DNA of 42,175 bases, taken from positions 1 to 42,175 of IMG/VR virus record IMGVR_UViG_3300025834_000277. The stretch is one strand, 5' to 3'. The DNA is from a virus. Shown here piece by piece: positions 2,120 to 39,167 of the stretch. The notes under the pieces were generated by a model, which did no database searches, was not told where the DNA came from, and worked only from the letters and a program-made list of their open reading frames with translations. Numbering within the stretch: the stretch's first letter is position 1; every line of letters begins with the position of its first letter. A program made the translations under genes and the position numbers.

Positions 2120-2481
2120 TACAACTGCCCTCTCAGCAATGCGATCTCAGAGTCCACCTGCTCAATGAACGATTTATTGCCGGTCAGAATCGCATCCCGC
2201 AGCCGGCGCGGGGTGATTGATGCCTCAAGCGTTGCTATTTCTGCCCGAATTAAATCTTTGGGATTTGGCGCTACAACAGGCTCCAAAACGGGCCTTGGGA
2301 TGTTCTCAAGAACAAACGCAACCCCATTGAATTTAGCCCGCGTACAAGGGGGAATATCACCGGGTAGGGCATCGACGCAACCCGCCGGAAGCAGGAACAC
2401 CCCCTCTTCAAGCGGAGATTGATCAGCTTCAGTCAGCGATACGAAATAGCCATTGGCATCAAGTTGTGAAACGGTTTTCAT
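2119..2481 (-). CDS. Tail fibre assembly / chaperone-like protein
   Basis: A 120-residue protein immediately downstream of the collar fibre gene. Its N-terminal part (residues 1-60) carries tail-assembly-like features such as the VSLTEADQSP segment. The C-terminal half (residues about 75-118) is helical and charged, with an EIATLEASITPRRLRDAIL segment common in Burkholderiales fibre-adjacent proteins. It likely helps fold or attach the fibre. The assignment rests on position and general resemblance. Ribosome site AGGA lies 7-8 nt before the ATG. Confidence 0.55.
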   Translation of the reverse strand: MKTVSQLDANGYFVSLTEADQSPLEEGVFLLPAGCVDALPGDIPPCTRAKFNGVAFVLENIPRPVLEPVVAPNPKDLIRAEIATLEASITPRRLRDAILTGNKSFIEQVDSEIALLRGQL

Positions 2482-2491
2482 GTGTCAATCC

Positions 2492-3211
2492 TTAGTATTT
2501 GATGATTGCCAGTAAGGCAAGATTTCGCGGGCGGGTTTCCGAGCCGCCGTAGCTTCCAGTACTTGATCCTGCTGTAGCGGATTCACTAGAGCCGCCGCCA
2601 ACAGGTCGCGAATTAGCGCCAGCTAATGCAGATGAACCGTGTGCGTGGGCTTCAACAGAGAAACCCTGGGCGCTACCAAAACCGCGCCCACTGTCTACTC
2701 CACGCCCATCATCCCAACCCCGAATGAACTCACCACGGCCATCAGGGATTGAAAAGGTAGTTGATCCGTCGCCAGCCCCGAAAGTAGTCCCGATGGCTGC
2801 AAAGAGTGCGGCGTAGGTAGAGCGAGAAACCAGCGCACCATTTGCCTTTAGATAACCCGCAGGCGCAGAACTTGAAAAGGCGACATACATCACACTACCG
2901 ATAGGAACGAGGCCCGGCCCAACGAGGCCAGTCAAACCAGTGATGTCACCGTTGAGACCAGCGGCGGCAGCGCCAACCGGAAATCCAGTCGATAACGACC
3001 GTAGGCTAATCCAGCCGATGTTGGCGGCGTTGCGTTGCTTCAGGATCCCAGTGGTGACATCAGCCCATAATCGATAGGCACCAATGGCGCCAGGGTCGGC
3101 TGCCCCCGAATGAAGCGAATCTATGCTATCCAGTGCGGCATTAACAGCCTGCGCCAACGCCAGACCGGAAAGCGTTCCCGTTGTAGGAATTACGATTAAA
3201 TTTTGCGACAT
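2492..3211 (-). CDS. Tail fibre with phage collar domain
   Basis: A 239-residue fibre tip protein. After an N-terminal segment (about 1-95) that would join the tail tip, it has a collar-type domain beginning near VPIGSVMYVAFSSSAPAGYL (residue about 101) and continuing to FSIPDGRGEFIRGWDDGRG (about 155-172). It ends in a His/Gly/Ser-rich region and ETRPRNLALLAIIKY. These are the hallmarks of the phage tail collar family, which forms receptor-binding fibre ends. The ATG lies 1 bp beyond the tail-tip stop and has an AAGGG ribosome site. It carries no copy of the variable repeat found at 31.7 and 32.2 kb, so this fibre is not the target of the retroelement seen here. Confidence 0.85.
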   Translation of the reverse strand: MSQNLIVIPTTGTLSGLALAQAVNAALDSIDSLHSGAADPGAIGAYRLWADVTTGILKQRNAANIGWISLRSLSTGFPVGAAAAGLNGDITGLTGLVGPGLVPIGSVMYVAFSSSAPAGYLKANGALVSRSTYAALFAAIGTTFGAGDGSTTFSIPDGRGEFIRGWDDGRGVDSGRGFGSAQGFSVEAHAHGSSALAGANSRPVGGGSSESATAGSSTGSYGGSETRPRNLALLAIIKY

Positions 3212-3212
3212 G

Positions 3213-6185
3213 TCAGTACCCTTGTGATTTGTAGTTGATGTTTCTGGTTACGCCGATACCGGCGTTGACCACCTGCACAGTGAAGCCGTTGAGCGTCTGG
3301 GCGGACAGGATTACGTCGTCTCCCGCTACCCCATTGAGAATGGTGATCTGAGGCAGTGGCGCAACGTTTGCGCCCGTTCCGCCGTTAAATGCCGGTGTAT
3401 AGAGCACCGTCATGCCGCCGGCGGCCACCTGCATATTCCCCTCCACCATCCGGTCCGGTACATCCACCATGAAGGTGAGCCCTGAAAGGATGGCCGTCAC
3501 CTGCGGGTCGCTGCTGGAAATCAGCACGCGGGCTTTGTAATACTGGGCGTTGTAGGCACCGGGAATGAAGTTATTCCAAGCGCCGTAAATACCATCCGCC
3601 TGGGCCAGTGCAATTTGCGGCTGGGCACTCACCTTGACGCCCAGTGCATCGCCCAGAAAATCAGCAACGCTCAGCACGTCTGACATGGTCAGCATGTTGT
3701 CGTAGATGCTCTGGCCACGCACGGTGTAGCCGATCATGACGTTGCAGGGTGCAACGCGCCCGATATTGACGACGTGACCCGCTGATAGATCGTACTCACC
3801 CGATGGCGCTACACCGCCGTACCAAATGAAGTCTGGCACGGCCAGAATGTTGGCGACAGACAGAATATTGCCAGCGCCGGCCAGGATGATGCTGCCGGCC
3901 TGAATCGCCGCCCCGCCAGAGGTCGTGCCCGGCCAACCGAGCGCAAATTCATCGTAGTTGGCGATGACGTTGCTGGTGAGCGTTCCGCCGGCGAGAACCA
4001 TTGGAGTCGGGGCAGCAGAATAAGCCAGCCCAGAATGGGCCGACACCCAATAAGTATCATCTCCAATCGTCTGAAACTCTGTATTGGGTGTGCGCCCGAG
4101 CACCTGGGCGCCTGCCCATGTCGCCCCTTTGCGCACCTCATATTCCACTGTCCGCACCAGGTCGGGGACGGCATCCCATGAAGCCAGCGTCAACCCAGCA
4201 CGGAACACACTGATCAGGTTCTGCACGTTGGCCAGCGGCTCCAGCAGCGCCGCACCGGTGACGACATAGGGAAAGGCCGCCACCGTGGCAAGCGACTGTT
4301 CTGCGGCACCGTAAATATTGATACTGGTGAATTTGAAGTAGATCGTTTTACCGATCATCGACAGGTCCAGCGGGCCAGACTTGGCGATGGCATTATCCAC
4401 GCGGGCGAACGGATCACCGACCGCATGCGCTGAGCCACTGGTGCCAAAGGCCGAGCGCGTCAGGCCCGACAGCGTGTAGGCCAGGGAACCCGTCAGGGTA
4501 GCCGGACCGTGTGCCAGATATTCCGGGTTCGCACCGCCGATGTAGCACAGGGTGGACAGGTTGGCTGAATCGGTTGCGCTGCCGCTGAGCATTTGGCCGC
4601 CGTTGATGGTGATGGGCAAACTGCCCGCCGCAATCGGCCCGGCCAAAGCGCCGTAACGGGCTCCGCCGTACAGCACACCGCTGTCTTTGTATTGCACGCC
4701 ATCCAGCGATGCCCAAATGCGACAGCCGCCCCAGCTGGCACCCTTGCCAAGCACCGCTGCATAGACCTCCAGGCCCGTGGTGGTTCGTGCGATGGGCGCT
4801 TCAAAAATAAAGGGTGGCAGTACATCGCCAGGCGCTGCGTTGTAGTCATGCTGGAAGCCGGTGCCCGCTTGCGAGGGGTACAGCGCTGCATGGGCTACGC
4901 CTATCAGGAAGTCTTCCGCCACCACTGTCAAGTCGCCGCTGTCGGACTCCCCGATCTCGGTGATGCGCACGGCCAATTTGTTGTAGCCCAAACCGGCATC
5001 CGTCAACGTGACCAGATCCATCGGCTCCAACAGGGCCCGCGTCCAGGGCAAATCGAACTCGTAGGTGTTGCGGATGTACATCGCGCGCTGCAGCAGCAAT
5101 TGGGCTACGGTGCGGGCAATGTCGGCATCGCAGATCCAGTGAGCCGACACAATTTCAGCCGACCGCAGGCCGTAGGCGTCGATATTGGCGCTGTCTTTGG
5201 CCTCTGTAATCTCGACGTTGTAATAGTTCGCCCGGTTGACGAACTCGACCCGAATGTGGTTGTAGGCGTCCGCTTGTGGCTTGCGCTTGACGCGGATAGG
5301 GTCGCCACCTTCGGAGGGTGTGAAGTCGTCATCCGTCAGGTCATACAGTGGCGTGATATTGGGCGTGTAGGTTGCACCGTTGCCACTGATGACGGTGTCA
5401 CCATACGGGATCATCTTCAACTGATTGCCCGACCACACAGCGCCGGTATTGGTGAGGGCGCAGATTTTCGCCACAAACTCACCGGCCTGCATTTGCTCGG
5501 TGAGCGCAGGCGACAGCAAGATGTTGGATGCCAGGCAGTAGGTTGACCAGGCCGCTGTATCCATCTGGCCAGCAGGGAATGACGCCCCATAGCGGGGATT
5601 GGTCAGTACGTCCACCGTGACTAAGGCGGTATTGGCATCGGGGGCGCCGTAGCCGCCGCTGTAGGCCAGTTGCCCAGCGATTTCAAACGAATGGTTTTCA
5701 ATCGAAGCACTGGCACCCAGGTCGTAATCTTGCGCATAAACATGGGCCAAGCCACTGTAGCCGATGGCTTGCGCCGGAAACGAGGAGGAAAGATAGGGCC
5801 AGGTGGCTTGCCCATTCAGCCCAGCCGCGATCGACATGCTGAGTTGCAATGCTGCGGGTGCATCGCCCGAATACAGCTTCTTACCCTTCCAGATACGCGG
5901 AATGGCAGAAATGGGGCCCTCGCATAAGCCCATCATGACGGAGGCTGAATAGGTATAGGTGGTGCTGACTTGCGTCACGCCACCACCACCACCGCCGCCC
6001 TTGCCGCCCGAGGTTTGGCTGCTGGTGTGAGCGTTGGCTTTAAAGTCGCCGTACCAGAGCATATTGCCCGCGATGCGGTTGACACCATAGACCAGAGGGA
6101 TGGTGACGCCATAGGCCGAACTTTGCAGCGTCAGTGCTTCAATGCGTGTTTCGCTGGTCGAAATTGTGCTTGATGATCCACCCAT
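3213..6185 (-). CDS. Tail tip / host-specificity protein (central tail hub)
   Basis: A 990-residue protein that closes the tail tip and likely faces the host surface. The N-terminal 60 residues (IPLVYGVNRIAGNMLWYGDF) are typical of GTA/Rcc-type tail hub proteins, followed by a poly-Gly stretch (about residues 64-70) and then a domain with MGLCEGPISAIPRIWKGKK. The middle (about 280-420) resembles the Phage-tail_3 hub region, and the C terminus has fibronectin-like and beta-rich segments. It follows the DUF2460, DUF2163 and NlpC genes in the standard order of this tail type. The start overlaps the NlpC stop by 1 bp. Confidence 0.85.
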   Translation of the reverse strand: MGGSSSTISTSETRIEALTLQSSAYGVTIPLVYGVNRIAGNMLWYGDFKANAHTSSQTSGGKGGGGGGGVTQVSTTYTYSASVMMGLCEGPISAIPRIWKGKKLYSGDAPAALQLSMSIAAGLNGQATWPYLSSSFPAQAIGYSGLAHVYAQDYDLGASASIENHSFEIAGQLAYSGGYGAPDANTALVTVDVLTNPRYGASFPAGQMDTAAWSTYCLASNILLSPALTEQMQAGEFVAKICALTNTGAVWSGNQLKMIPYGDTVISGNGATYTPNITPLYDLTDDDFTPSEGGDPIRVKRKPQADAYNHIRVEFVNRANYYNVEITEAKDSANIDAYGLRSAEIVSAHWICDADIARTVAQLLLQRAMYIRNTYEFDLPWTRALLEPMDLVTLTDAGLGYNKLAVRITEIGESDSGDLTVVAEDFLIGVAHAALYPSQAGTGFQHDYNAAPGDVLPPFIFEAPIARTTTGLEVYAAVLGKGASWGGCRIWASLDGVQYKDSGVLYGGARYGALAGPIAAGSLPITINGGQMLSGSATDSANLSTLCYIGGANPEYLAHGPATLTGSLAYTLSGLTRSAFGTSGSAHAVGDPFARVDNAIAKSGPLDLSMIGKTIYFKFTSINIYGAAEQSLATVAAFPYVVTGAALLEPLANVQNLISVFRAGLTLASWDAVPDLVRTVEYEVRKGATWAGAQVLGRTPNTEFQTIGDDTYWVSAHSGLAYSAAPTPMVLAGGTLTSNVIANYDEFALGWPGTTSGGAAIQAGSIILAGAGNILSVANILAVPDFIWYGGVAPSGEYDLSAGHVVNIGRVAPCNVMIGYTVRGQSIYDNMLTMSDVLSVADFLGDALGVKVSAQPQIALAQADGIYGAWNNFIPGAYNAQYYKARVLISSSDPQVTAILSGLTFMVDVPDRMVEGNMQVAAGGMTVLYTPAFNGGTGANVAPLPQITILNGVAGDDVILSAQTLNGFTVQVVNAGIGVTRNINYKSQGY

Positions 6186-6619
6186 TACCAGAGACTCCAG
6201 TGTTGCATTTCTCGTCCCTCAAGGGGGTCCTCGGTGGGGCGCGACAAGATCACGCCACGCCCGATATAACTGTGGATAAACAAGCCGTTGCCGGCATAAA
6301 TAGACCCGTGTGAAAAACAGCGGCCAAACTTGAACAAACACACATCACCCTTTTGCAAAGGCGATCCGGCTGGCTGCAGCGTTGCAAACTTCTCCAGCCA
6401 GCCGCTAAAGACTTCCTGGCTATGGTGCAAATGCCAGTCCACTGCATAGGTGCCCGGGTCCACCGGCTGCACCAGCCCGCACGCCTCGTACACCGCGCAC
6501 AGCAGCTGCGCACAGTCCACGCCCACGCCTTTGAGGCGGGCATGGTGGTGGTAAGGCGTTTTGAGCCATGTCGCCGCCTCAATGACGACGGCCTCTCGCT
6601 GGTTTGCTTCGGTGTTCAT
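6185..6619 (-). CDS. Tail-associated NlpC/P60 peptidase
   Basis: A 144-residue cysteine peptidase of the phage NlpC/P60 type, which opens peptidoglycan during DNA entry. The catalytic Cys is in GVDCAQLLC (Cys36) and the catalytic His in FSHGSIY (His104), with the expected spacing. It overlaps the DUF2163 gene by 4 bp and directly precedes the large tail-tip gene, the usual neighbourhood of this family. Confidence 0.88.
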   Translation of the reverse strand: MNTEANQREAVVIEAATWLKTPYHHHARLKGVGVDCAQLLCAVYEACGLVQPVDPGTYAVDWHLHHSQEVFSGWLEKFATLQPAGSPLQKGDVCLFKFGRCFSHGSIYAGNGLFIHSYIGRGVILSRPTEDPLEGREMQHWSLW

Positions 6620-7488
6620 GAAATAGTCTCAGGTGCTGGCACGTAGGGGTGGCCCCTGAAGCGTGCGACATTGCCAAACTTGCCGCTGCAGGTGCCTTGT
6701 GTTTTGTCGCAGCCGGGGTAGACGGCAAACGTGTCGCCGGCCGCCACGGCGCTGGGCCAGGGCTGGATGGTGGTAATGGCGCCCGCACCAAACGCCTTGA
6801 TCGTGCGGCCAACGCCGGCATTGGCGCCCGTGACGCCAACCGCAAAGCCCAGGGCGAACCAGCCGGCGGCCTGCCCTGCCGCACTGTTGAATGTGGTCTT
6901 GGGCGCATCGGTGGCGCTGATCGCAGTGAGCGCTACCCCGTAGGCGGCCTTGGACAATCCACAGGCGCCATCAAACAGGGTGTTGCCGCAGCCCGGCTGG
7001 TACACATTGCGCGGCACCATGACATTGAGAAGCTCGCTGTCGCTGTTAACAGTAATGCTGGCCTCATAGCGCGAGGCCTGCGTGTCGCTGATACGGCCTT
7101 GAAACAATGGCAATACACCAATCCAGGCTGCGCCCGGTGCCGAGGTGAAGGCCCGATCCAGCGCGAGCCGCGCCCCATCAAAGCCACCGGCGGCAATAAA
7201 TTGCAGCAAGGGGATGCCGTTAATCAACACAGTGGCATCCGCCGCGAGCGTCACGCCCAGTGAGTCCACGGAGATGCCCACTGCCAGCTTGGTGTTGCCG
7301 CGCTTGATGACTGGGCCGAGGTTGAAGGTATTGCCATTGACCATCACCGCCATGTCGGCCGAGGTGTAGCGAATGACCGCCCCGCCCGACAGCGTGATGG
7401 TGAACAGGTCAACCATGTAGGTTTGCGTTGCGCTGTTGAGGAAGGCGGCCAGCGCACCCACGTTGCTCTCCCACGATGCGGCCCTCAT
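6616..7488 (-). CDS. DUF2163 tail tip protein
   Basis: A 290-residue protein of the DUF2163 / phage BR0599-type family, a distal tail component in GTA-like siphovirus tails. The C-terminal part has the typical pattern of conserved Cys residues (CGNTLFDGACGLSKAAYG and YPGCDKTQGTCSGKFGN) and ends in RFRGHPYVPAPETI. The start at 7488 gives a 4-bp overlap with the DUF2460 stop; the upstream in-frame extension overlaps that gene and is rejected. Confidence 0.85.
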   Translation of the reverse strand: MRAASWESNVGALAAFLNSATQTYMVDLFTITLSGGAVIRYTSADMAVMVNGNTFNLGPVIKRGNTKLAVGISVDSLGVTLAADATVLINGIPLLQFIAAGGFDGARLALDRAFTSAPGAAWIGVLPLFQGRISDTQASRYEASITVNSDSELLNVMVPRNVYQPGCGNTLFDGACGLSKAAYGVALTAISATDAPKTTFNSAAGQAAGWFALGFAVGVTGANAGVGRTIKAFGAGAITTIQPWPSAVAAGDTFAVYPGCDKTQGTCSGKFGNVARFRGHPYVPAPETIS

Positions 7489-8084
7489 GGTTTCGCCGTA
7501 ATCAGTTCGAGCGTCTTCAGCGCCCACAGGTTGTTCATGAACTTGTTGAACTCTGCCGTGTCCTGCGCAAAACAGATACGGCGGTAATAGGTGCCGGTCC
7601 ACGTCACCGCCGCCCCGGCGCCGGGGGCAGCTACGAACGTCAACAACCCGGCGTCACTCATGGTGTAGTTCATGGTGATTGTTTGCAGCACGCCGTCGAG
7701 GTAAACCAGTGGCGCACTGTTTACGTCAAAAACGGGCTCTACAAAGCCGCCAAAGGTACGCACCAACTGAAACAGCCGGTTCGAACCATCCCCCGGGCCC
7801 AAAGACTGCGCCGTCACCGCGCAATCGTCGGGGTCAGTGAACAGGAATGAATCGAAACTGCCGCGGCGGGCATTGAAAAAACCGACCAGGGCGGTGAACT
7901 CTGCAAAGCCGGTCGTTTGCCGAAGCACCTCGTAAGACAGCTTGTACTTGTAGAGCGGATAGCTGGCATTGGCACTGCGGAAATCACGCTGGCTGACGGA
8001 TGGTTTGTGCGTTGTGCTCCAGACTGGCGTGCGTGAAACTTCTGCTTTCAGGCCGGGGAAGCTGGGGAAAATAGCATTGCTCAT
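7485..8084 (-). CDS. DUF2460 distal tail protein
   Basis: A 199-residue protein of the DUF2460 family. It starts with the FPSFPGLKAEVSRTPVWST segment and has FFNARRGSFDSFLFTDPDD near residue 70, both typical of the family. Homologues form the distal tail ring in GTA-like tails. It shares its start base with the tape-measure stop and is followed by DUF2163, NlpC and tail-tip genes in canonical order. Confidence 0.87.
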   Translation of the reverse strand: MSNAIFPSFPGLKAEVSRTPVWSTTHKPSVSQRDFRSANASYPLYKYKLSYEVLRQTTGFAEFTALVGFFNARRGSFDSFLFTDPDDCAVTAQSLGPGDGSNRLFQLVRTFGGFVEPVFDVNSAPLVYLDGVLQTITMNYTMSDAGLLTFVAAPGAGAAVTWTGTYYRRICFAQDTAEFNKFMNNLWALKTLELITAKP

Positions 8085-10471
8085 CAGACAAACTCAAAGT
8101 TGCGTTTCATTTTTTTGAGCACCTTGCCCAAGTCTTTCAGCTTGATGGAATCATCAGGACTGCCGTAAATATGGATTGGCCCGGTATCACCACCGCCGCC
8201 ACCCTGCCCCGGCTCCTGGTCTGCCAGGCTACGAATGACATTGGCGTGTTTGGCGGGCAGCACCATTTCTTGTTCGTGGAGCTGGGTGATGGGGTCCAGT
8301 CCAGCGGGAATGTCGTAACCCCCCGAGGCACTGGCGATATTGGCGGCGAAGCCCATCACCACACCTGTGGCTGCGATCGCCATCACAGGTGCGAGGAACG
8401 GGCCGACATACGGAATAGCTGCAATCGCGGCATACACGCTGGCAGCAACTTCCCACGCTTTGATAGCAATATTTTTCACGGCAGACCATGCATTGGCCGC
8501 AACAGATTGCAGTGCGGCGCCCCAGTCAGACGTCGTGCGCGTAGCATTTCCCGCAACAGTGGCGCCTGTTTGTGCTGTTTCACCAAGTGCCCAGGCAACA
8601 ACTTTCTTGGCAATGAATTGGGTGAAGCCCTGCAATACGGCGCCCCAGAGCGCTTGCAACCCCTGGCGTAACGTCATCATTCCCTGCAACATACTGGCTA
8701 TGGTGTTCTCAAATCCGCTACGGATTCCACTGAATAAGCTGCGCTGTGCTGCGCTGGACTCCAGCGCAGATTGGCGATTGAGGTCGCCTTCAAGTGCTTT
8801 ATATTTGCGCTTGATTTCCAGTTTTTGTAACTCAAGCTGCTCAAGCATGACGACATTGGCATCAGGATCAAGTTTTGCAACTTCGAGTTTTTGCGCAATG
8901 AAGTCCAACTCGGCCTGCAGGCGCATTTGGTTGAATGCAGCCTGACGGTCCAGGTAGTCGGCTTGAGTCAGGTTTCCTTGGTCACGCTCAAAGGCGGCGC
9001 GAGCATCTAACTCGGCAATGTAATCAAGAGTTTCAGATTTCCAGTCTTCAGCGTGCAGCTGGGTGATGGCGCTCTTGTCTTTGGCGCTTTGCCGCAAAAT
9101 ATCAAGCTCCAACTTGCCCATCTTGAGGGCGATCGAAGTACGGTCTTTGCTGCCTACCGTATAGGTGTTAAGGATGTCGCGCCAGTAGGCCAGCTCCTGT
9201 TGCTTGCTGAATTCACGCAGGGTGTTCTCGCTCTCAAAGGCAAGCTTTTGTTGGGTTAGAACGGCCTCGTAAGTAGGCATGGCTGTCGGCTCTTTGTCGA
9301 TCTTGACATGCATGGCTTTGTCTTTTGCAGCTTCCTTTTTTTTGGGGTCGACATAGTCGCTCGTTCCTGCGCCGGGGCCGCCGCCGCTGCCAGCCTGGTC
9401 GTCGCGGGCAAACAGGTTATAAACCTGATCGGCCGTTTTGCGCGACTCATCGGCCATGCGATTGAGTGAGCCAGACCATGCATCGGCCATGTTGTTTCCA
9501 ATGGACTTGAAGGCGTTCACTGCGCCTGAGAAATCCCCGGTCATGGCGCGGCCCAGCATTTCAGTGAGGCCGCGCAGGGGTTCCAGCACGCTGTAGAGCA
9601 TGAGCTGGAGTGTTTCCCACAGCACGCTCACACCATTTTTTACAAACAGAAACGCAGAAGTCAGACCGCTGAGCGCACCGCGCACGAGAATAATGGCGGC
9701 CGGCATGACACTGTTGAACATATTGACCAGCGTGGTCATGACGGGCATGAGGGAGTCGCCGATGGCTTTGGTCATGCCTTGCGTACCGAAACCTGCTTTG
9801 TCCATGGCAGCGTCATATTCTCCCCATGCGGCCACGGCGTTTGCACCCACCGTAAGGCCCATTTCTTCCATGGTGCGACGGGCATCTTCTTGTGTTTGCT
9901 GGTTGTACACCATGAGTTTGCTGGAGGCGTCCAGGCCCTTGCCAAACAGGATCTGCGAGGCCAGCATGCGGTCTGTGCCCTCTTTGTAGTTGCCCAGCAC
10001 TTTGATGCCGTCTGCCACCAGTTCTGTCATGGGGCGCAGATGGCCTGATGCATCACGGGTTGCCAGACCCATTTTGTTCATCTCTTCTTCGTTTTCTTTG
10101 AGCCTTTTCGCCATGCCTTTGGCAGCGCCCTCATATTCACCAGTAGACGCGCCAATGTCTTCCATGGCAATCTGGATAGCCCGGGCTTCATTGGTAGTGA
10201 CTCCAAGAGCGCGACCGAGATCCATCGCGATCTCTGTCATCTTGGCCGCCTCATCAACAGCCTTGGCGCCCATAAAACCAGCGGCCAAAATTAATGACAT
10301 TTCGGCAAATACAACCTTCAGCCCGGCCAGCGGACCGGTGGCGAGGCCGCCCAGCGCGTTGGCCACGCCGCTTTGCCCGCCCTTGGCGGCGTCAACCATG
10401 CGGCGCATGGCTTGCTCGAACGGATTGATGTTCGCGCCAACCTGAAAACCTGTTGCGTTTTGTGTGCTCAT
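8084..10471 (-). CDS. Tail tape measure protein
   Basis: A 795-residue protein with long Ala-rich helical stretches, hydrophobic segments near residues 245-280 and 660-710, and a charged coiled-coil middle (about 395-570). These are typical of tape-measure proteins that set tail length and help DNA entry. It lies between the tail chaperone pair and the DUF2460 gene as expected. No strong Shine-Dalgarno sequence is visible before the ATG. A dispersed hairpin repeat has been inserted just upstream (10484-10527), which may have changed its expression. Confidence 0.88.
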   Translation of the reverse strand: MSTQNATGFQVGANINPFEQAMRRMVDAAKGGQSGVANALGGLATGPLAGLKVVFAEMSLILAAGFMGAKAVDEAAKMTEIAMDLGRALGVTTNEARAIQIAMEDIGASTGEYEGAAKGMAKRLKENEEEMNKMGLATRDASGHLRPMTELVADGIKVLGNYKEGTDRMLASQILFGKGLDASSKLMVYNQQTQEDARRTMEEMGLTVGANAVAAWGEYDAAMDKAGFGTQGMTKAIGDSLMPVMTTLVNMFNSVMPAAIILVRGALSGLTSAFLFVKNGVSVLWETLQLMLYSVLEPLRGLTEMLGRAMTGDFSGAVNAFKSIGNNMADAWSGSLNRMADESRKTADQVYNLFARDDQAGSGGGPGAGTSDYVDPKKKEAAKDKAMHVKIDKEPTAMPTYEAVLTQQKLAFESENTLREFSKQQELAYWRDILNTYTVGSKDRTSIALKMGKLELDILRQSAKDKSAITQLHAEDWKSETLDYIAELDARAAFERDQGNLTQADYLDRQAAFNQMRLQAELDFIAQKLEVAKLDPDANVVMLEQLELQKLEIKRKYKALEGDLNRQSALESSAAQRSLFSGIRSGFENTIASMLQGMMTLRQGLQALWGAVLQGFTQFIAKKVVAWALGETAQTGATVAGNATRTTSDWGAALQSVAANAWSAVKNIAIKAWEVAASVYAAIAAIPYVGPFLAPVMAIAATGVVMGFAANIASASGGYDIPAGLDPITQLHEQEMVLPAKHANVIRSLADQEPGQGGGGGDTGPIHIYGSPDDSIKLKDLGKVLKKMKRNFEFV

Positions 10472-22595: not shown

Positions 22596-22651
22596 GATTG
22601 GCCTCCTAGTGGTTCGTTTTGCAACAACCACCGCACCCACTTCCAAATGAG

Positions 22652-22733
22652 GGCGGCAGCTCGAACAGGTTGGAAGACCGGGAACCACTTGCGTGAACCG
22701 GCAGGCCCTTGCGAGCCTCCCATTCGAGCCGCC
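22652..22733 (-). ncRNA. C4-like antisense RNA
   Basis: Read on the minus strand, this segment folds into a closed domain: an outer stem made of GGCGG/CCGCC and TCGAA/TTCGA encloses two hairpins, one with AGGC/GCCT ends and one with CCGG/CCGG ends. This layout, and phrases such as GGCGGCTCGAATGGGAGGCT, match my memory of C4 antisense RNAs, which control antirepressor operons in P1/P7-like prophages. The second hairpin carries AGTGGTTC (22689-22682). Its exact complement GAACCACT lies directly before the ribosome site of the next gene (22615-22608). True ends were not determined. Confidence 0.62.
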
Positions 22734-22756
22734 ATAAACTGGGGACTTGAACAACA

Positions 22757-27121: not shown

Positions 27122-27559
27122 TCAAGCCACTCCCGTCTCTGGAGATTGAAACGGTGGGCCTTCTGCAGCCCGGCGATCAAGATCAATCGGCAAGTCCTGC
27201 GCCCGGCGATTGGCATGGCGGCGGACAACGCCTGTACGGAGAACGCCGACCTCAGAGATCGCGGCATCAACTGCTACGGTTTCAGCAGCAGCCTGCGCAA
27301 TATTGGCGGGGGCTTTAGCCAGTTCAGGCCAGTATTTATGCCAGTCATCTGGACGCAGATCCTTCCGGGTAACAGTGCCCTTAGTGGCCTGTTCAATGGC
27401 AAGGCAGTGCTCGACCGGGATACCACGCACTTTCCAATTCCCGATTGCAGCCACCGACACGCCAAGCAGATCAGCAAGAATTTTCCGTCCATCGACCAGT
27501 CGAGCCGCTGCATCGAGGGCTTGCGCAGAAGACGAATAAGAGGGGTTAGTGATTTCCAT
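27122..27559 (-). CDS. Cro-like regulator, YdaS family
   Basis: A 145-residue protein with a YdaS/Cro-type helix-turn-helix (RKILADLLGVSVAAIGNWKV, about residues 25-44), followed by RGIPVEHCLAIEQAT and LRPDDWHKYWPEL. The C-terminal 60 residues are Ala/Arg-rich and less conserved. It is divergent from the CI-like gene, with operators between them. GAGG lies only one base before the ATG, so translation may be leaderless or use a weak site. Confidence 0.8.
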   Translation of the reverse strand: MEITNPSYSSSAQALDAAARLVDGRKILADLLGVSVAAIGNWKVRGIPVEHCLAIEQATKGTVTRKDLRPDDWHKYWPELAKAPANIAQAAAETVAVDAAISEVGVLRTGVVRRHANRRAQDLPIDLDRRAAEGPPFQSPETGVA

Positions 27560-27568
27560 GCCTCAATA

Positions 27569-27621
27569 TAACACGTATCGTGTTAATAATCTAACACCAC
27601 GTGTTTACACTTTTTGTGTTG
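27569..27621. promoter_or_regulatory. Operator cluster between repressor and Cro genes
   Basis: Site 1 is a perfect 17-bp palindrome, TAACACGTATCGTGTTA (27569-27585). Site 3, TTACACTTTTTGTGTTG (27605-27621), follows the same 7-3-7 plan with mismatches. Between them an overlapping imperfect site has AACAC (27593-27597) and GTGTT (27601-27605) arms. Matching sites occur again at 29281-29322. The cluster fills the 73-bp gap between divergent regulator genes, as in lambda OR. Confidence 0.8.
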
Positions 27622-27632
27622 AATCACACGTA

Positions 27633-28124
27633 ATGAAAACGATTGGTGAAAGAATTCGACAAGCCCGTGAAGCGCACAAGATGAGCGGGGAAGCCCTCGC
27701 CAAAAAGGTGGGTTACAAAAATCAATCGGCCATCGGAAATCTTGAAAATCGAGTCGGTGGCACTGGCGGAAGCAAACTTGGCAGCATTGCCGATGCACTA
27801 AATGTCCCGCTTGAGTGGCTTATGCGCGGGCCAGACAATGACAATATTCCGTTTCTCCCTGGCAACGCGTATCACGGCACTGAGGTCAATACCACCGTAA
27901 GAGAATCTGGCTCCAGCACAAATGTGGTGACCATCGGTACGGATTCACGACCTGTAGCTGCCCTTGATCCTTGGACACTCGAAGCGATCGAGATCATGTC
28001 AAAGTTGAAGGAACATGAAAAGCAGGGCGCACTCGCCAACTTGAGAACCTATGTCTACAACTTGGGCCCACCCCGCGACGGCCAAGCTCTACCAATGGCC
28101 AGTCAAAAAAATGGAGCCTCGTGA
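27633..28124 (+). CDS. CI-like prophage repressor without peptidase domain
   Basis: A 163-residue repressor. Residues about 1-70 form an HTH_3-type domain (MKTIGERIRQAREAHKMSGE, then LAKKVGYKNQSAIGNLENRV). The rest has no S24/LexA-like Ser-Lys self-cleavage motif; near residues 115-145 is a short helical stretch (LDPWTLEAIEIMSKLKEHEK) that may support dimerisation. The start at 27633 aligns the HTH as in homologues; no clear ribosome site is present, so it may be translated from a leaderless message, as lambda cI is from PRM. A longer open frame to 27549 would run across the operators and is rejected. Confidence 0.82.
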   Translation: MKTIGERIRQAREAHKMSGEALAKKVGYKNQSAIGNLENRVGGTGGSKLGSIADALNVPLEWLMRGPDNDNIPFLPGNAYHGTEVNTTVRESGSSTNVVTIGTDSRPVAALDPWTLEAIEIMSKLKEHEKQGALANLRTYVYNLGPPRDGQALPMASQKNGAS

Positions 28125-30880: not shown

Positions 30881-31138
30881 ATGCCATCCATCACCCTCAT
30901 TCTGTGCGACACACCCAATGGCGGCGTGTCCATCCATAGCAGTTTTAAGCCTGCCGTAGGCCACCCCTGCAGCGCCGCCCAAGCGCATGCGCTGGACATT
31001 CTCAGCTGTACCCACAAGCAATGGGGCGTGCACATTGACGCGGCACCAGGCGGGGTTGACATTGATGCAGTGCACCGCACGCGCGACAAGGTCGTGGCCA
31101 CGATCAATACATTGCCTGTGCAGGAGCACGGTCAATGA
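30881..31138 (+). CDS. Small conserved phage protein
   Basis: An 85-residue protein starting MPSITLILCDTPNGGVSIHS with FKPAVGHPCSAAQAHALDI following, of a type seen in early regions of Burkholderiales phages. The start at 30881 has AGGAG 10 nt upstream. An alternative start at 30779, overlapping the previous stop, would add 34 low-complexity residues. Function unknown. Confidence 0.68.
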   Translation: MPSITLILCDTPNGGVSIHSSFKPAVGHPCSAAQAHALDILSCTHKQWGVHIDAAPGGVDIDAVHRTRDKVVATINTLPVQEHGQ

Positions 31139-31416
31139 AAAATACGCCAACTACCGCCACTCTGGAGCAGCAGCGCCAACAACGCTTCATCGAACTGGAG
31201 GCCTGGCTGGCAGCGCAAGGCCCGACCCGCACGCCATCCGTAACAGCCCACAGCGCATCCACTTCACGCGACTACGACGGCGCCGAACTCAGCGCCGCAC
31301 CGACACGCCCGGGCGCTGATAAAGCCCGGTCCATTCCCAGCCGAATGGGCGACAGGCTGCACCACTGCTGCAGCCGCACCACGGATCTGGCCGGTAACCA
31401 AATTTACACAACCTAG
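31135..31416 (+). CDS. Hypothetical small protein before the retroelement
   Basis: A 93-residue polar protein (MKNTPTTATLEQQRQQRFIE) with a helical N terminus and a Ser/Arg-rich disordered C terminus including HHCC. It overlaps the preceding gene by 4 bp and ends 8 bp before the first retroelement target gene. No family is recognised. Confidence 0.55.
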   Translation: MKNTPTTATLEQQRQQRFIELEAWLAAQGPTRTPSVTAHSASTSRDYDGAELSAAPTRPGADKARSIPSRMGDRLHHCCSRTTDLAGNQIYTT

Positions 31417-31424
31417 GAGCGACC

Positions 31425-31814
31425 ATGCCCACCCAACTTCAAACCACCCCAATCTCCACCCTGCCCGCCTTGGGCGGCGCGCTGGACGGCGGCGTCTTCG
31501 CCGGCGTCACCACCCGCCAAGACGGCGTGCACTGCGCTGTTATCCGATTGCCGGAAAACGGCACCAAGCTTACCTGGAGGAAAGCAGTGGCCTGGGCCAA
31601 GAAACAAGGCGGCGAACTGCCTACCCGTACTGTAGCCGCCCTGTTGTTTGCCAACGTGAAGGCCACCCTGCCCCCTGGCTGGCACTGGACCAGCGAAGAG
31701 GATGACGCCTCTTACGCCTGGGATTGCCTCTTCGACTACGGCGACCAGTTCAGCATCCCCAAGAGCTACAAGGGCTCGGCTGTTGCCGTCCGCTTGATTC
31801 CTATCACTGCTTGA
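31425..31814 (+). CDS. DGR target protein 1 (DUF1566 / C-type-lectin-like)
   Basis: A 129-residue protein with a beta-rich N terminus and the DUF1566-type pattern TWRKAVAWAKKQGGELPTR (about residues 50-68), then FANVK, WHWTSEEDDAS and SYKGSAVAVRLI at the end. Members adopt the formylglycine-enzyme/C-type-lectin fold used by many DGR targets. Its last part, residues about 94-123, is encoded by variable repeat 1. Against the template residues NCNFNNGNQNNNH it reads DCLFDYGDQFSIP. No signal peptide or membrane segment is visible. GGAG lies 5 nt before the ATG. It is paralogous to target protein 2. Confidence 0.88.
   Translation: MPTQLQTTPISTLPALGGALDGGVFAGVTTRQDGVHCAVIRLPENGTKLTWRKAVAWAKKQGGELPTRTVAALLFANVKATLPPGWHWTSEEDDASYAWDCLFDYGDQFSIPKSYKGSAVAVRLIPITA
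31705..31793 (+). repeat. DGR variable repeat 1 (VR1)
   Basis: 89 bp that align without gaps to the template 32879-32967. I count 12 differences, 11 at template adenines (template positions 18, 24, 25, 30, 33, 39, 45, 46, 49, 52, 55). The one other change is G to A at position 66, in the 3' conserved part. The last 23 bp are identical to the template. Confidence 0.92.
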
Positions 31815-31845
31815 TTCTTCAATCCTTTTTTCACAGGAGCCAACT

Positions 31846-32301
31846 ATGCCCACCATCACCCTAGAGGCCGTCCAGGCCAAACAAACCGAACTGACCGAGA
31901 TGATTCAGCAGCTGCAAAAGACCCAGCAAATTCGCGTCATCAAGATCACCGAAGACACCATTGAATTGCGCCCAGGTGAGCACTACTCGGGCGCAGTGCT
32001 GGACGCGGACGGCGGACACCTTCACCACCTGGTGCTGATGGCGCCCCGCCCCAACACCAAACTCACGCAGCAAGGTGCTATCGACTGGGCAGAAAGCGTC
32101 GATGGAGACTTGCCCGATCGTCAAGAGCAAGCCTTGCTCTACGCCAATTGCAAGCCACACCTGAAGCCTGAATGGCATTGGTCCAACGAAACACACAAGG
32201 ATGACGCCTCTTCCGCCTGGATTTGCCTCTTCAGCCACGGCGACCAGAGCTTCAGCCCCAAGAGCTACGAGGGCTCGGCTGTTGCCGTCCGCAGAGTCTG
32301 A
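31846..32301 (+). CDS. DGR target protein 2 (DUF1566 / C-type-lectin-like)
   Basis: A 151-residue paralogue of target 1. A helical N terminus (about residues 1-30, EAVQAKQTELTEMIQQLQKT) that target 1 lacks could oligomerise the protein. This is followed by LRPGEHYSGAVLDADGG, the DUF1566-like DWAESVDGDLPDRQEQALLY, and WHWSNETHKDDAS. Residues about 120-150 are encoded by variable repeat 2. Against template NCNFNNGNQNNNH it reads ICLFSHGDQSFSP. It ends directly after the repeat. AGGAG lies 6 nt before the ATG. No export signal is visible. Confidence 0.88.
   Translation: MPTITLEAVQAKQTELTEMIQQLQKTQQIRVIKITEDTIELRPGEHYSGAVLDADGGHLHHLVLMAPRPNTKLTQQGAIDWAESVDGDLPDRQEQALLYANCKPHLKPEWHWSNETHKDDASSAWICLFSHGDQSFSPKSYEGSAVAVRRV
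32204..32295 (+). repeat. DGR variable repeat 2 (VR2)
   Basis: 92 bp that align without gaps to the template 32879-32970. I count 12 differences, all at template adenines (positions 10, 19, 24, 25, 31, 33, 39, 46, 48, 49, 52, 55). From position 56 to the end (37 bp) it is identical to the template, consistent with an initiation-of-homing end. Confidence 0.93.
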
Positions 32302-32342
32302 TTCCTTTAGTCCTTCAATCCTTTTGAACTGAGCCCGCCACC

Positions 32343-32705
32343 ATGGCATTGCATACCGAACTCCCGATCCACCGCACCGGCGTGCGCCTGCTTGATCTCG
32401 CGATCAGGGCGCAGGTGCAAATGCCGCGCACCGTCAAGCGCGCGCTGGGCGAAAAGATCACTCAGCACTGCGTGGAAATGCTGGATCTGATGGCCCTGGC
32501 CAACGCCACCCAACGCGAGACCCGCGCCGGCCACATCGACCAGTTACTCACCCGCCAGCGCGCCATGACGGTACTGCTGCGGGTCAGCCACGACGCCCGG
32601 TATATCTCGCCCAAGCTGTGGGCAGATTCCATCGAGCTACTGGGGAGTATCGGCAGGCAGGCTGGTGGTTGGATCAAAACTGCGAACAGGGCGCCTGCTG
32701 TATGA
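32343..32705 (+). CDS. avd: Avd-like accessory variability protein (four-helix)
   Basis: A 120-residue all-helical protein with features of Avd/four-helix-bundle proteins: TGVRLLDLAIRAQVQMPRTV near residue 12, QLLTRQRAMTVLLRVSHDA (about 67-85) and RYISPKLWADSIELLGSIGR (about 86-105), ending in QAGGWIK. Avd forms a pentamer that binds the template RNA and reverse transcriptase in characterised DGRs. It lies between the targets and the template/RT as in the Bordetella phage element. No strong ribosome site is visible. Its stop overlaps the first ATG inside the RT frame. Confidence 0.82.
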   Translation: MALHTELPIHRTGVRLLDLAIRAQVQMPRTVKRALGEKITQHCVEMLDLMALANATQRETRAGHIDQLLTRQRAMTVLLRVSHDARYISPKLWADSIELLGSIGRQAGGWIKTANRAPAV

Positions 32706-34060
32706 CGGTCAAGGCCCTCATGCCCGTGCGCACAGTGAATCTGGTCGCGCCGCTGGCCCACAAGGCCACCGACATGCACACCACGGAGACCGCTGCACCA
32801 GTGCAGGCCCGGCCCGGTGCAGCCTCTCACCTGATCGGCTACGGCCTTCGGGAGAGAGGCCTCAATAGCGCGATAGATACGCCTCTTACGCCTGGAATTG
32901 CAACTTCAACAACGGCAACCAGAACAACAACCACAAGAGCTACGAGGGCTCGGCTGTTGCCGTCCGCAGATCCACACCTGTTCCACCAGCTGGTGCAGGC
33001 CTACCTTGACTGCCGCCGCACCAAGCGCAATAGCGCCAGTGCGCTGGCATTCGAGGCCCAGGCTGAGCACAACCTCTACCAGCTCTATGAAGAGCTGGCT
33101 TCTGGTACCTACCAGCCAGGCGGCTCCGTCTGTTTTGTCATCACCCACCCCAAACCGCGCGAAGTGTGGGCGGCGCGCATTCGCGACCGCATCGTGCACC
33201 ACCTGCTCTACAACTACATTGCGCCGCGCTTTCATGCGCGCTTCGTCGCCGACAGCTGCGCCTGTATCCCCGGCCGCGGCACGCTCTACGCCGCCAAGCG
33301 GCTGGAGCACCAGGTGCGAAGCTACACCCGCAACTGGAGCCAGCCGGCGCACTATCTCAAGTGCGATCTAGCCAACTTCTTCGTTAGCATCCACAAGACG
33401 GTAGTTCTGGAGCAGCTGCAGCGCCAGGTGACAGAGCCCTGGTGGATGGCCCTGGCCACGGTCATCCTGATGCACGACCCGCGCCACGATGTCGAGGTGC
33501 GCGGCACCCGCGCCGAGCTGGCCTTGGTGCCACCGCACAAAAGCCTGTTCAACGCACCCCAGGGCTACGGCCTGCCCATTGGCAACTTGAGCAGCCAGTT
33601 CTTTGCCAATGTGCTGTTGGACGATCTAGACCAGTTTGCCAAGCACCGCCTGCAGGCGCCCACCTACGTGCGCTATGTGGACGACTTCATTCTGTTGCAC
33701 GACAGTCCGCAGTGGCTCAACCAGGCACGACAGCAGATCGAATGCAAGCTGGACGAACTGCACCTGCAGCTCAACCCCCGCAAGACCATCCTGCAGCCCG
33801 TGGCACGCGGCATCGACTTTGTGGGCCACCTGATCCAGCCGTGGCGGCGCATCACCCGCCGCAAGACCGTGCACATGGCGCTGGAGCGCCTGCAGGACAT
33901 GCCCGCTGCAGATCTGCACCAGCCCGCCAACAGCTACTTCGGCCTGCTCCGGCAGGCGACCCATAGCCACCACGACCGCACCCGCGTTGCCAAGCTCATG
34001 CTGCAGCGTGGGCATGTGGTCAAGGGTGACATGACCAAGATTTATCGAAAGAAAGGTTAA
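32702..34060 (+). CDS. DGR reverse transcriptase
   Basis: A 452-residue reverse transcriptase. Catalytic residues are Asp in LKCDLANFFVSI (Asp222) and YVDD at about residues 325-328 (VRYVDDFILL). The GLPIGNLSSQFFANV stretch (about 290-304) is the DGR-type motif 4, and GIDFVGHLIQPWR follows. It would copy the template RNA with adenine-specific errors. The start at 32702 is favoured by the 4-bp overlap with avd; the conserved RT core begins only near 32970, after the template repeat. The first about 90 residues are therefore encoded across the template in another frame, giving a Thr-rich segment. A start farther downstream cannot be excluded. Confidence 0.9.
   Translation: MTVKALMPVRTVNLVAPLAHKATDMHTTETAAPVQARPGAASHLIGYGLRERGLNSAIDTPLTPGIATSTTATRTTTTRATRARLLPSADPHLFHQLVQAYLDCRRTKRNSASALAFEAQAEHNLYQLYEELASGTYQPGGSVCFVITHPKPREVWAARIRDRIVHHLLYNYIAPRFHARFVADSCACIPGRGTLYAAKRLEHQVRSYTRNWSQPAHYLKCDLANFFVSIHKTVVLEQLQRQVTEPWWMALATVILMHDPRHDVEVRGTRAELALVPPHKSLFNAPQGYGLPIGNLSSQFFANVLLDDLDQFAKHRLQAPTYVRYVDDFILLHDSPQWLNQARQQIECKLDELHLQLNPRKTILQPVARGIDFVGHLIQPWRRITRRKTVHMALERLQDMPAADLHQPANSYFGLLRQATHSHHDRTRVAKLMLQRGHVVKGDMTKIYRKKG
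32879..32970 (+). repeat. DGR template repeat (TR)
   Basis: Adenine-rich template of 92 bp. In the frame used by the targets it encodes one AAT and seven AAC codons in the variable part (NCNFNNGNQNNNH), the usual way a DGR avoids stop codons and reaches many residues. It lies between avd and the RT core and within the RT open frame. Its 3' GC-rich end (about 36 bp) is nearly the same as in both variable repeats. A short CGGC-TGTT-GCCG hairpin lies in that end. Confidence 0.93.
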
Positions 34061-37770: not shown

Positions 37771-38048
37771 TCTCCCCAATTATGGATTCCCCCGCCGTCG
37801 CTGCACTGCTGAAATGTTCAGAGCGAACCGTCGAGGATCATGCCCGGTCCGGGCGCCTGCCGGCAGTCAAGTTTGGGGATGGCTGGATGTTTCCCAGCGA
37901 CGCCTTGCTGCGGGCTGTCAACCAATTGGCCGAGGAAGAGGCGGCCAAACGCTCAGCACCCGTCAAGCCTGTAGCGGTCAAACAGGTCATAGACAAAAAA
38001 CGATCTACCCGCCCCAACCTTTCGCTGCTATCCCAGGCGGGCGCTTAA
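37767..38048 (+). CDS. Excisionase-like HTH protein
   Basis: A 93-residue protein with a MerR/excisionase-type DNA-binding domain: SPAVAALLKCSERTVEDHAR and SGRLPAVKFGDGWMFPSDAL (about residues 8-47). It is the last gene of the plus-strand operon and overlaps the integrase 3' end by 21 bp in convergent orientation, which fits a directionality factor. Its expression from the repressed operon would restrict excision to induction. Confidence 0.7.
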   Translation: MISPIMDSPAVAALLKCSERTVEDHARSGRLPAVKFGDGWMFPSDALLRAVNQLAEEEAAKRSAPVKPVAVKQVIDKKRSTRPNLSLLSQAGA

Positions 38049-39167
38049 GTCCTCGCCGCGTAGGGATGCGTAGCGCAGCATCATCTTAAAGTCAGACCAG
38101 CCCATGATTTTGCAAACTTCAATCTCCGAGAATACCCAGCGCCCCGCTGGGTCACGCATCTCAACCCAGCGGCAGGTTGCCTCGTGGCGAAGGTCGTGTT
38201 CGGTGAAATCATCTACCTGGGCGAAACTAAACAGCGTTGAAAACCGCTGAGATAGCCGCCCAGTGGCCAGTTTTTTGTCTTCTTTCGTTCCATTCCAAAA
38301 CGGAAACAACAACCCAACCCGGCTGCGGCAGCGTGCCGCCAATAGCTCACGAAGCTCAATTACCAGCGGAACAACTCGCGGCTTTATTGCCCCGCGGTGA
38401 CCCTTGCTTCCTGCCACACGCAGGACCCATCGAGCCAGATCAACCTGGTCGGCGCGCAAACTGTATGCCTCGCTCAGTCGCAAGCCAGTATTCACGATTA
38501 ATTCAAAGAGCAAACTGAAATCGTCATCGACCTCTAGCGATCGCTCCCGCCCCTCGCGCCTCTCCCCCGCCAGAGCTGAGCGGACCCGCGCGTATTCTTG
38601 AGGCCACAAACGCCGGTCACGCTGCACATCACGCTTGACAATAAGATCTGACGCCTGAAGCAGCGCAGCCTCCCGATCGGTTGCTTGGCTGTAACCACGC
38701 GGCATCAAGCGCAAGGGGTTGGCTGGGGCCACATCATTTTTCAAGCGCCAATAGCCGTCGATCACCCGCGCCAAACTCTCTACCCGCTTGCGGATTGTGC
38801 TTGGAGCCAGGTGCTGCACTGTTTTCAGATCGACCACCCAAGCGTCAGCCCATGCGGCCGTGACCGACAGCAAGCGAACTGCGCCGACTGACTTATTGAG
38901 CAAGTTGAGTGTCGACCGGTCACTGGGGGCAACGGATGAATCGGCCAGGCAGTCCTCAATCAGGCGTTTGAGCAGCGGATTGTCCCCGCGCTTCCCCGCC
39001 TCCAGCAGCTCCACTGGAACAATACCCCGATCCAGCAGAGACTCCAGCTGCACGCCATAGGCCCGTGCCTCAGCCTCATCTGTGAACGTGTCGAAAAATG
39101 GTTTGGGAAGGAGCTTGTGCACAATACGAAGTTGCCACTTCCCGGAGCGCTCTTGAATGGATGCCAT
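38028..39167 (-). CDS. int: Tyrosine integrase
   Basis: A 379-residue phage integrase. An arm-binding and core-binding N terminus (about 1-200) precedes the catalytic domain. The active-site set is visible: Arg230 in NTGLR, Lys255 in VAGSKGHRG, HxxR at His324-Arg327 (EHDLRHEA), Trp357 in MGWSD and nucleophile Tyr366 in MLRYASL. It acts at attP near its own start; the host target is probably the tRNA region 200 bp to the right. The gene reads leftward, away from that end. Confidence 0.9.
   Translation of the reverse strand: MASIQERSGKWQLRIVHKLLPKPFFDTFTDEAEARAYGVQLESLLDRGIVPVELLEAGKRGDNPLLKRLIEDCLADSSVAPSDRSTLNLLNKSVGAVRLLSVTAAWADAWVVDLKTVQHLAPSTIRKRVESLARVIDGYWRLKNDVAPANPLRLMPRGYSQATDREAALLQASDLIVKRDVQRDRRLWPQEYARVRSALAGERREGRERSLEVDDDFSLLFELIVNTGLRLSEAYSLRADQVDLARWVLRVAGSKGHRGAIKPRVVPLVIELRELLAARCRSRVGLLFPFWNGTKEDKKLATGRLSQRFSTLFSFAQVDDFTEHDLRHEATCRWVEMRDPAGRWVFSEIEVCKIMGWSDFKMMLRYASLRGEDLSARLG

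Follow-up and report, generated by a model that had tools for sequence, protein, structure and literature searches.

One template, two old paralogous targets: chance-level sharing of substitutions in a probable diversity-generating retroelement of a temperate phage

The window analysed here, a virus record of 42,175 bases, carries two neighbouring target genes (T1 and T2) that each contain a variable repeat (VR1 and VR2), followed by an accessory gene, a single template repeat (TR) and a reverse transcriptase (RT), and it raises the question of why two repeats that differ at many sites carry the same substitution at template positions 24, 25, 39 and 55. The initial annotation, made from the sequence of this locus, offered two explanations, namely that the targets were duplicated after one round of diversification, or that selection on the lectin fold, at a Cys-Leu-Phe and a Gly-Asp-Gln motif, imposed the same changes on both. 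Our analysis leads to a different answer. Taken as a whole, the locus is very probably a functional or recently functional diversity-generating retroelement (DGR) of a temperate phage in which one template rewrites two old paralogues separately, and in which the shared changes are coincidental. The features on which this reading draws are collected in Table 1.

Table 1. Features of the window discussed in the text; positions are those of the whole 42,175-base stretch.
Feature	Position	Strand	Description
T1, first target gene	31425..31814	+	ORF; 129 aa; predicted C-type-lectin-like; VR at C terminus; orthologues in relatives
VR1, in T1	31705..31793	+	Against TR: 11 A changes and one G-to-A
VR1 3' anchor, IMH-like	31772..31793	+	22 nt identical across TR, VR1 and VR2
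VR1 downstream element	31794..31830	+	11-mer at 31817 exact; putative function
T2, second target gene	31846..32301	+	151 aa; additional N-terminal helix; predicted C-type-lectin-like
VR2, in T2	32204..32292	+	Against TR: 12 A changes, nothing else
VR2 3' anchor	32271..32292	+	Same 22 nt as in TR and VR1
VR2 downstream element	32293..32330	+	8-nt-period units; putative function
Avd, accessory variability determinant	32343..32705	+	PF22296, phrog_3206
RT-15 RNA (RF03018)	32689..32880	+	Immediately 5' of TR
TR, template repeat	32879..32967	+	89-nt core, 25 A
Reverse transcriptase reading frame	32702..34060	+	Putative start codon; RT core from 32972
CI-like repressor candidate	27549..28124	+ (DGR strand)	HTH_3, E 3.7e-10
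Cro/YdaS-like regulator	27122..27559	- (structural-gene strand)	PF15943, E 3.3e-18
Integrase	38028..39167	-	PF00589; three tRNAs beyond the integrase
C4 antisense RNA (RF01695)	22649-22739	-	Prophage early region
Terminase, portal, head and tail genes		-	

Numbering the TR from 32879 reproduces the positions of the initial annotation exactly, and its description of the pair holds, as VR1 and VR2 agree at the four named sites and differ at 11 other adenines. Among the 25 adenines of the core, 11 are altered in VR1 and 12 in VR2; eight are altered in both repeats, four identically and four differently, and seven in one repeat only. The same restriction to adenines was found across 23 deduplicated loci that include the window, where VR1 is changed at 248 of 561 adenines against 6 of 1095 other positions and VR2 at 230 of 537 adenines against 2 of 1047 (the VR2 of locus L017 is excluded from these counts for an indel). 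With both repeats pooled (478/1098 adenines against 8/2142 other positions), the relation between TR and VR is far beyond chance, and changes at other letters are rare even with the one in the window counted. These A-confined differences in both VRs, together with the homology of T1 and T2, bear out the earlier proposal that one template serves two paralogous targets, and they show A-specific copying of the template into both repeats. A VR on the minus strand was found neither in the window nor in the 35 other loci scanned, each with its own TR. One change in the window stands apart, a G-to-A at position 66 (31770 in VR1, 32944 in TR) that turns Glu into Lys and is unexplained by A-specific copying.

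The remaining parts of the cassette are those expected of a DGR. The Avd protein scores 43.8 bits against PF22296 (cut-off 40) and matches phrog_3206, described as 'Avd protein of DGR'; its score against NF033474, 45.7 bits, is below that model's cut-off of 80. The RT matches RVT_1 (54 bits) and phrog_1423 (3.4e-107), is 59-63% identical to RTs that adjoin TR/VR pairs in phage records, and contains the sequence IGxxxSQ, a hallmark of DGR-type RTs; NCBIfam names no DGR RT for it. The combination of A-confined TR-VR differences, a DGR-type RT, an Avd and a C-terminal VR in a target of C-type-lectin fold identifies the cassette as an Avd-type DGR, which on its sequence appears to be functional or recently functional. 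The RT frame is open from 32702 to 32971, through the RT-15 RNA and the entire TR, and its ATG overlaps the avd stop (ATGA). Among relatives, the RT frame stays open over 250 nt or more ahead of the RT core in 92 of 101 loci, compared with 2 and 10 loci for the other two frames, and 74 of 101 have an in-frame ATGA 200-330 nt upstream, a pattern suggesting that the template may be translated as part of the RT. The RT-15 RNA itself (168.4 bits, gathering threshold 82) was present in 6 of 6 sources scanned, and in this group it lies 5' of the DGR template as a conserved neighbour; in the literature searched, no title, abstract or passage linked RT-15 with DGRs, which does not prove absence.

The two targets are recognisable homologues. 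In a profile-profile comparison they align over nearly their full length (probability 100%, E 6e-47, 42% identity over 122 columns), and their N termini differ, as had been noted, T2 having an added helix at residues 6-26. No signal peptide is apparent by eye at either N terminus. Structure prediction, which the initial annotation had suggested as a check, gave AlphaFold2 models with mean pLDDT of 82.1 for T1 and 82.4 for T2, low in the VR, and both match C-type-lectin folds. The T2 model resembles Bd2740 (Z 12.2, rmsd 2.3, 100 residues aligned) and the C-terminal domain of Legionella Lcl (Z 10.7, rmsd 4.4, 113 aligned), and the latter is also the best solved match of the T1 model (Z 8.0, rmsd 3.0, 98 aligned, with the VR at low confidence). 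Both targets are therefore modelled as C-type-lectin-like proteins with the VR at the C terminus. Foldseek returned no good PDB match for the T1 model, and a search of BFVD with the T2 model returned mostly animal-virus C-type lectins, which we read as a shared fold only; Mtd and TvpA are absent among the structural matches listed, an uninformative result. The likeness to the Lcl C-terminal domain (Lcl_C, DUF1566-type), which is the first or second structural match of both models, extends to the sole sequence match to a solved structure (8q4e, the Lcl C-terminal domain, E 0.0039), but the window proteins score 19.7 bits (T2) and 14.2 bits (T1) against the Pfam family, below its gathering cut-off of 34.9. 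At E 0.01, 21 of 22 T2 and 9 of 21 T1 sequences match Lcl_C, the T1 of the window not among them. Lcl is a bacterial surface protein that is not known to belong to a DGR.

Whether the four shared substitutions call for any explanation beyond independent mutation is a matter of expectation. For the window pair, the probability of at least four identical outcomes among eight doubly changed sites is 0.26 when the three outcomes are equally likely and 0.39 at the rate found between unrelated loci. Relatives were gathered by RT, Avd and T2; 36 chosen loci, the window included, were scanned for TR and VR (L031-L039 were left out), and the first set comprised the 27 loci of the main TR pattern less the duplicates L004, L012, L025 and L030, giving 23 deduplicated loci, of which 22 have both VRs readable once the indel-bearing VR2 of L017 is removed. 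In these 22 loci VR1 and VR2 agree at 282 of 537 adenines, against 48.0% with permuted partners (p 0.008), and are identical at 68 of 146 doubly changed sites, against 0.398 (p 0.048), the excess sitting in the 3' half next to the anchor (61.4% against 55.8%, p 0.0017). In 101 two-target loci, a subset of 131 distinct loci, identical changes make up 315 of 750 (0.420) within a locus against 0.411 permuted (p 0.34), and in the 80 loci absent from the first test 250 of 612 (0.408) against 0.416 (p 0.62). Because identical changes stand at the permuted level in the 101 loci, the four shared substitutions are a coincidence at chance level. An excess persists when all adenines of the 101 loci are considered (0.520 against 0.471), but it stems from adenines unchanged in both VRs, and this residual agreement reflects sites that are constrained or seldom hit in a given template. 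Sharing between unrelated loci, at 0.39-0.41, is somewhat above one third, and the outcomes at adenines are therefore biased, by mutation or by selection.

The alternative that survives this comparison best, although we consider it quite improbable, is that one cDNA, or recombination between the repeats, at times updates both VRs and leaves shared blocks of changes. The anchor-side excess in the first 22 loci is what such linkage would produce, blocks of four identical changes occur in L010 and L026, and pairs formed by T1 and a third target (T3) share much (6/7 in L027, 5/6 in L029). Against this, the four shared sites of the window are interleaved with differing ones, and the weak signal of the first set was not replicated for identical changes in the 101 loci or in the 80 new ones, on which ground we reject co-conversion of VR1 and VR2. 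Less probable again is that positions 24, 25, 39 and 55 were selected to suit one common ligand or the fold. A sharing rate slightly above one third between unrelated loci is in its favour, but these sites hold three to four bases in both VRs and vary freely across relatives, so that neither the Leu of Cys-Leu-Phe nor the Asp of Gly-Asp-Gln is conserved, and the base distributions of VR1 and VR2 in relatives differ at none of 24 sites (lowest p 0.087). The appeal of the initial annotation to the lectin fold accordingly finds no footing at these positions. Constraint on the fold, or selection, instead shows in adenines that never change, namely site 43 in a Gln codon (43/43 VRs) and sites 57 (43/43) and 58 (45/45) in a Lys codon, many of whose neighbours change often.

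The coincidental sharing of separately rewritten repeats is also consistent with the contrasting ages of the targets and of their VRs. In a tree of 63 target sequences with the VR removed, the 21 T1 rows, that of the window included, form one group (support 99/92) that also holds one T3 and gp4 of EBPR siphovirus 1, and the T2 rows of the same phages fall elsewhere; the alignment is short (111 columns), deep forks are weak, and the T1 of L008, the T3 of L029, the T1 of L020 and locus L005 were left out. The phylogeny of the paralogues proposed in the initial annotation thus separates T1 from T2, and the split between them is older than the divergence of the phage group to which the window belongs. 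The T1 and T2 of gammaproteobacterial phages do not sort cleanly in the tree, and independent duplications or swaps in other groups are possible. The VRs, by comparison, are rewritten quickly and separately. Two IMG/VR records (L003 and L005) are identical over positions 1583-9086 (7.5 kb) except at 15 sites, of which one lies in VR1 and 14 in VR2; L087 and L088 have 14 differences in the near VR and one more between the near VR and the RT core; L233 and L234 have a single difference, in the far VR; and in eight more close pairs, whose RTs are 1.1 to 11.1% different, the number of shared adenines that differ is 9-17 for the near VR and 11-15 for the far one. At the same time both repeats follow their template in concert, in that wherever a TR departs from the consensus at a letter other than A, the VRs carry the letter of their own TR (82/82 in VR1 and 79/79 in VR2, together 161/161), which shows that the TR has been recopied repeatedly into both targets after the split. 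Inheritance of the shared changes from a duplication that followed one diversification round, with some sites not rewritten since, has on its side that T1 and T2 are true paralogues and that four doubly changed adenines agree, but with 42% identity, separate tree groups, recopying after the split and VRs that differ on identical backbones (as in L003 and L005) we count it as excluded and give it next to no credence.

The paired arrangement extends well beyond the window. We collected 214 RT-bearing loci; judged on the RT together with the 500 nt before it, 131 of them are distinct, a criterion that also discarded L005 despite its different VR2. In the 119 distinct loci whose upstream sequence reaches 1.9 kb or more, two VRs occur in 84, three in 17, five in one (L127) and a single VR in 11, and six have none, so that 102 of 119 have at least two targets; remote loci, from Bacteroidales and elsewhere, are included in the one-VR and no-VR classes. 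Relative to the TR, the usual places of the two main VRs are about -670 and -1170, and two VRs are found in the phage records Magia, Cruim01, phPA-G, Haboob, LPPA56, QDWS and SC_8_H2H8_2017. Both targets vary and both are kept, rather than one alone varying beside a truncated partner. As sequenced, T1 is broken in L008 and T2 is frameshifted within VR2 in L017, which means either that a copy can disappear or that the assemblies are in error. Several loci show further variants of the layout. Third VRs lie 2-3 kb upstream of the TR in L013 (771-878), L027 (1001-1098) and L029 (772-876), the third target being T1-like in L027 and T2-like in L013 in the tree. The T1 slot of L013 (2385-2819) holds a divergent target outside the main T1 group, which suggests that a target was replaced and the VR kept. 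In L047, gp4 of EBPR siphovirus 1 (1937-2350) is T1-like (54.5% identity) and lacks the downstream motif described below, and no annotated DGR gene lies within the first 10 kb of that phage.

Together these observations fit a mechanism in which the RT, with Avd, reverse-transcribes the one template RNA and makes errors at A, and each resulting cDNA replaces the 3' end of T1 or of T2. Anchoring would be provided by the 22 nt common to all three repeats, probably along with a conserved element that lies downstream of each VR and is missing at the template. The targets are old tandem paralogues of C-type-lectin-like fold, and because each is rewritten in separate events, both keep the scaffold and the non-A letters of their own TR and differ in the A-derived residues. 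The four shared changes are then cases in which the same A was hit in two independent copies and, given a biased choice among three letters, came out alike.

How two recipients might be recognised by such a system is less obvious, since the usual signal appears to be missing. In BPP-1 a hairpin after the VR is required for efficient homing, and passages of Guo et al. describe GC-rich hairpins of 7-10 bp with a GRNA loop, 4-34 bp after the VR, in other phage DGRs (PMC3240598). We take a hairpin after the VR as usual and not universal for DGRs, and as no bar to membership. Within 60 nt, perfect stems in the window reach at most 4 bp after VR1 and 5 bp after VR2, although the same script recovers the 8-bp GAAA hairpin of BPP-1, and over the same distance the first 23 loci yielded no perfect stem longer than 5 bp. 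Of the 101 loci, 94 have a recognisable VR end; among these, stems of at least 7 bp were found after 13 near VRs, 11 far VRs and 7 TRs. A short motif marks the VRs instead. With up to two substitutions, CTTCAATCCTT follows 23/23 VR1, 23/23 VR2 and 3/3 third VRs and 0/23 TRs, the background rate in these loci being 0.178 per kb per strand. Across the larger set the motif was found after 32/32 near and 32/32 far VRs of loci with a template of the window type, after 28/62 near and 30/62 far VRs where the template is of another type, after 5 of the 16 further VRs, and after none of the 94 TRs. The downstream stretch has an 8-nt period, with a lag-8 self-match of 0.43-0.48 in four VR sets against 0.20 after the TR; the loci are related, and the z-scores for this element are inflated accordingly. 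Within the window the period stands out after VR2 (p 0.0125) but does not reach significance after VR1 (p 0.38), and Tandem Repeats Finder reported nothing at 31000-33200, which makes the array a weak repeat that is visible mainly across many loci. We infer that the downstream element is a recipient mark. It could possibly serve translation of the next gene as an alternative; in the window, however, T1, the first gene, has no copy before it. Nothing on tandem or direct repeats after VRs was found in the titles, abstracts and passages of the literature searched, and absence is not proven thereby.

Where the two proteins act is a separate question, which the initial annotation had left between the virion and the host interior. 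The cassette lies on the same strand as the CI-like gene and opposite the terminase, portal, head and tail genes, and upstream of the cassette of phage Haboob, on the cassette strand, are genes for a CI-like repressor and a glycosyltransferase. The neighbourhood was sampled as 111 ORFs from 23 relatives, drawn in random order from 67 loci with no more than five ORFs each; cytosine methylase (7), integrase (6), DUF2303 (5) and ParB (4) lead the Pfam families there, and no head or tail family occurs among the 25 listed of 27 Pfam families or of 167 PHROGs. The repressor-side strand and the neighbouring families without head or tail genes therefore favour early or lysogenic expression, a placement read from gene order alone, and a virion part can be encoded anywhere. 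We infer that T1 and T2 are ligand-binding proteins made from the early or repressor side, in the lysogen or during early infection, and not late parts of the virion. Display on the virion is nevertheless a serious rival reading, and a distinctly possible one even though we lean against it. In that case T1 and T2 would be receptor-binding proteins like Mtd of BPP-1, two independent adhesins per particle. The C-type-lectin fold of the models and the lack of a visible secretion signal agree with it, and phage DGR targets in clades 1, 4 and 6 are described in the consulted passages of Roux et al. as mostly tail proteins (PMC8144416); against it stand the position of the cassette on the repressor side, opposite the structural-gene strand and unlike that of BPP-1, the families listed among its neighbours, and the shortness of T1 and T2, in which no scan recognised a tail-attachment domain. 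A broader proposal builds on early-side expression of T1 and T2, namely a distinct temperate-phage DGR subfamily with paired paralogous lectin targets, a pyrimidine-rich array of 8-nt period as the recipient mark in place of the hairpin, expression from the repressor or early side, and variation displayed by the lysogen or the newly infected cell, for example in excluding or recognising other phages; in this full form we hold it to be tentative and rather unlikely. As for the host, the nearest named RT carriers are Comamonadaceae and other Burkholderiales contigs, on which basis a Burkholderiales host is likely; the named relatives of the phage are mostly in Burkholderiales too, and the gene near the integrase and tRNAs is one that we take to be the host lon.

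Set beside known systems, the cassette resembles the BPP-1 DGR (mtd, avd, TR, brt) in its order of target, avd, TR and RT, in its Avd, and in the A-biased VR at the target 3' end; our script recovered the BPP-1 pair with 18 of 22 differences at A. It differs in that mtd, avd and brt lie on the structural-gene strand of BPP-1, whose CI-side operon holds recombination and integrase genes, and in that BPP-1 has a GC-rich 8-bp hairpin after its VR, whereas in the window the targets are a paralogous pair on the side of the repressor, and such a hairpin is missing. Several VRs occur in 28.6% of DGRs according to the figure given in PMC6642488. The DiGReF passage on multi-VR DGRs (PMC3521204) already describes paralogous target ORFs, with duplication as the likely origin and 'continuing and independent diversification', so that DGRs with several independently diversifying paralogous targets are in print; the loci given in that passage are bacterial, whereas here the tandem pair is the rule (102/119) in a phage group. 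The gut phages nd4 and nd12 (tentaclins, PMC10743442) likewise have one TR and two VRs that differ within a genome and coincide 'only sometimes', but their two targets are of unlike topology, whereas those of the window are paralogues with a C-terminal VR in both, and section 2.6 of that paper gives no permutation test of the coincidence, which is given here. The nearest counterparts are the T-T-Avd-TR-RT cassettes with two VRs of Burkholderia phage Magia (gp47 and gp46) and of Pseudomonas phages Cruim01, phPA-G and Haboob, in which Magia gp47 is annotated as a potential DGR target, and gp46 and the targets of the Pseudomonas records as hypothetical proteins. To this body of work the present analysis adds a quantitative coincidence test, a natural rewrite of one VR, a fixed paired layout and the downstream array.

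In summary, whether the VRs of one genome resemble each other, a question about two-target DGRs that has been treated qualitatively in print, can be answered across 101 loci, where they do not do so beyond chance. If the downstream array is a recipient mark, it would supply a short rule for which sequences the RT rewrites and would separate targets from template. Because the cassette lies apart from the structural genes, the site of display can be tested directly in cultured relatives. The tandem pair, for its part, is a lasting feature of a widespread group of phages and no transient duplication.
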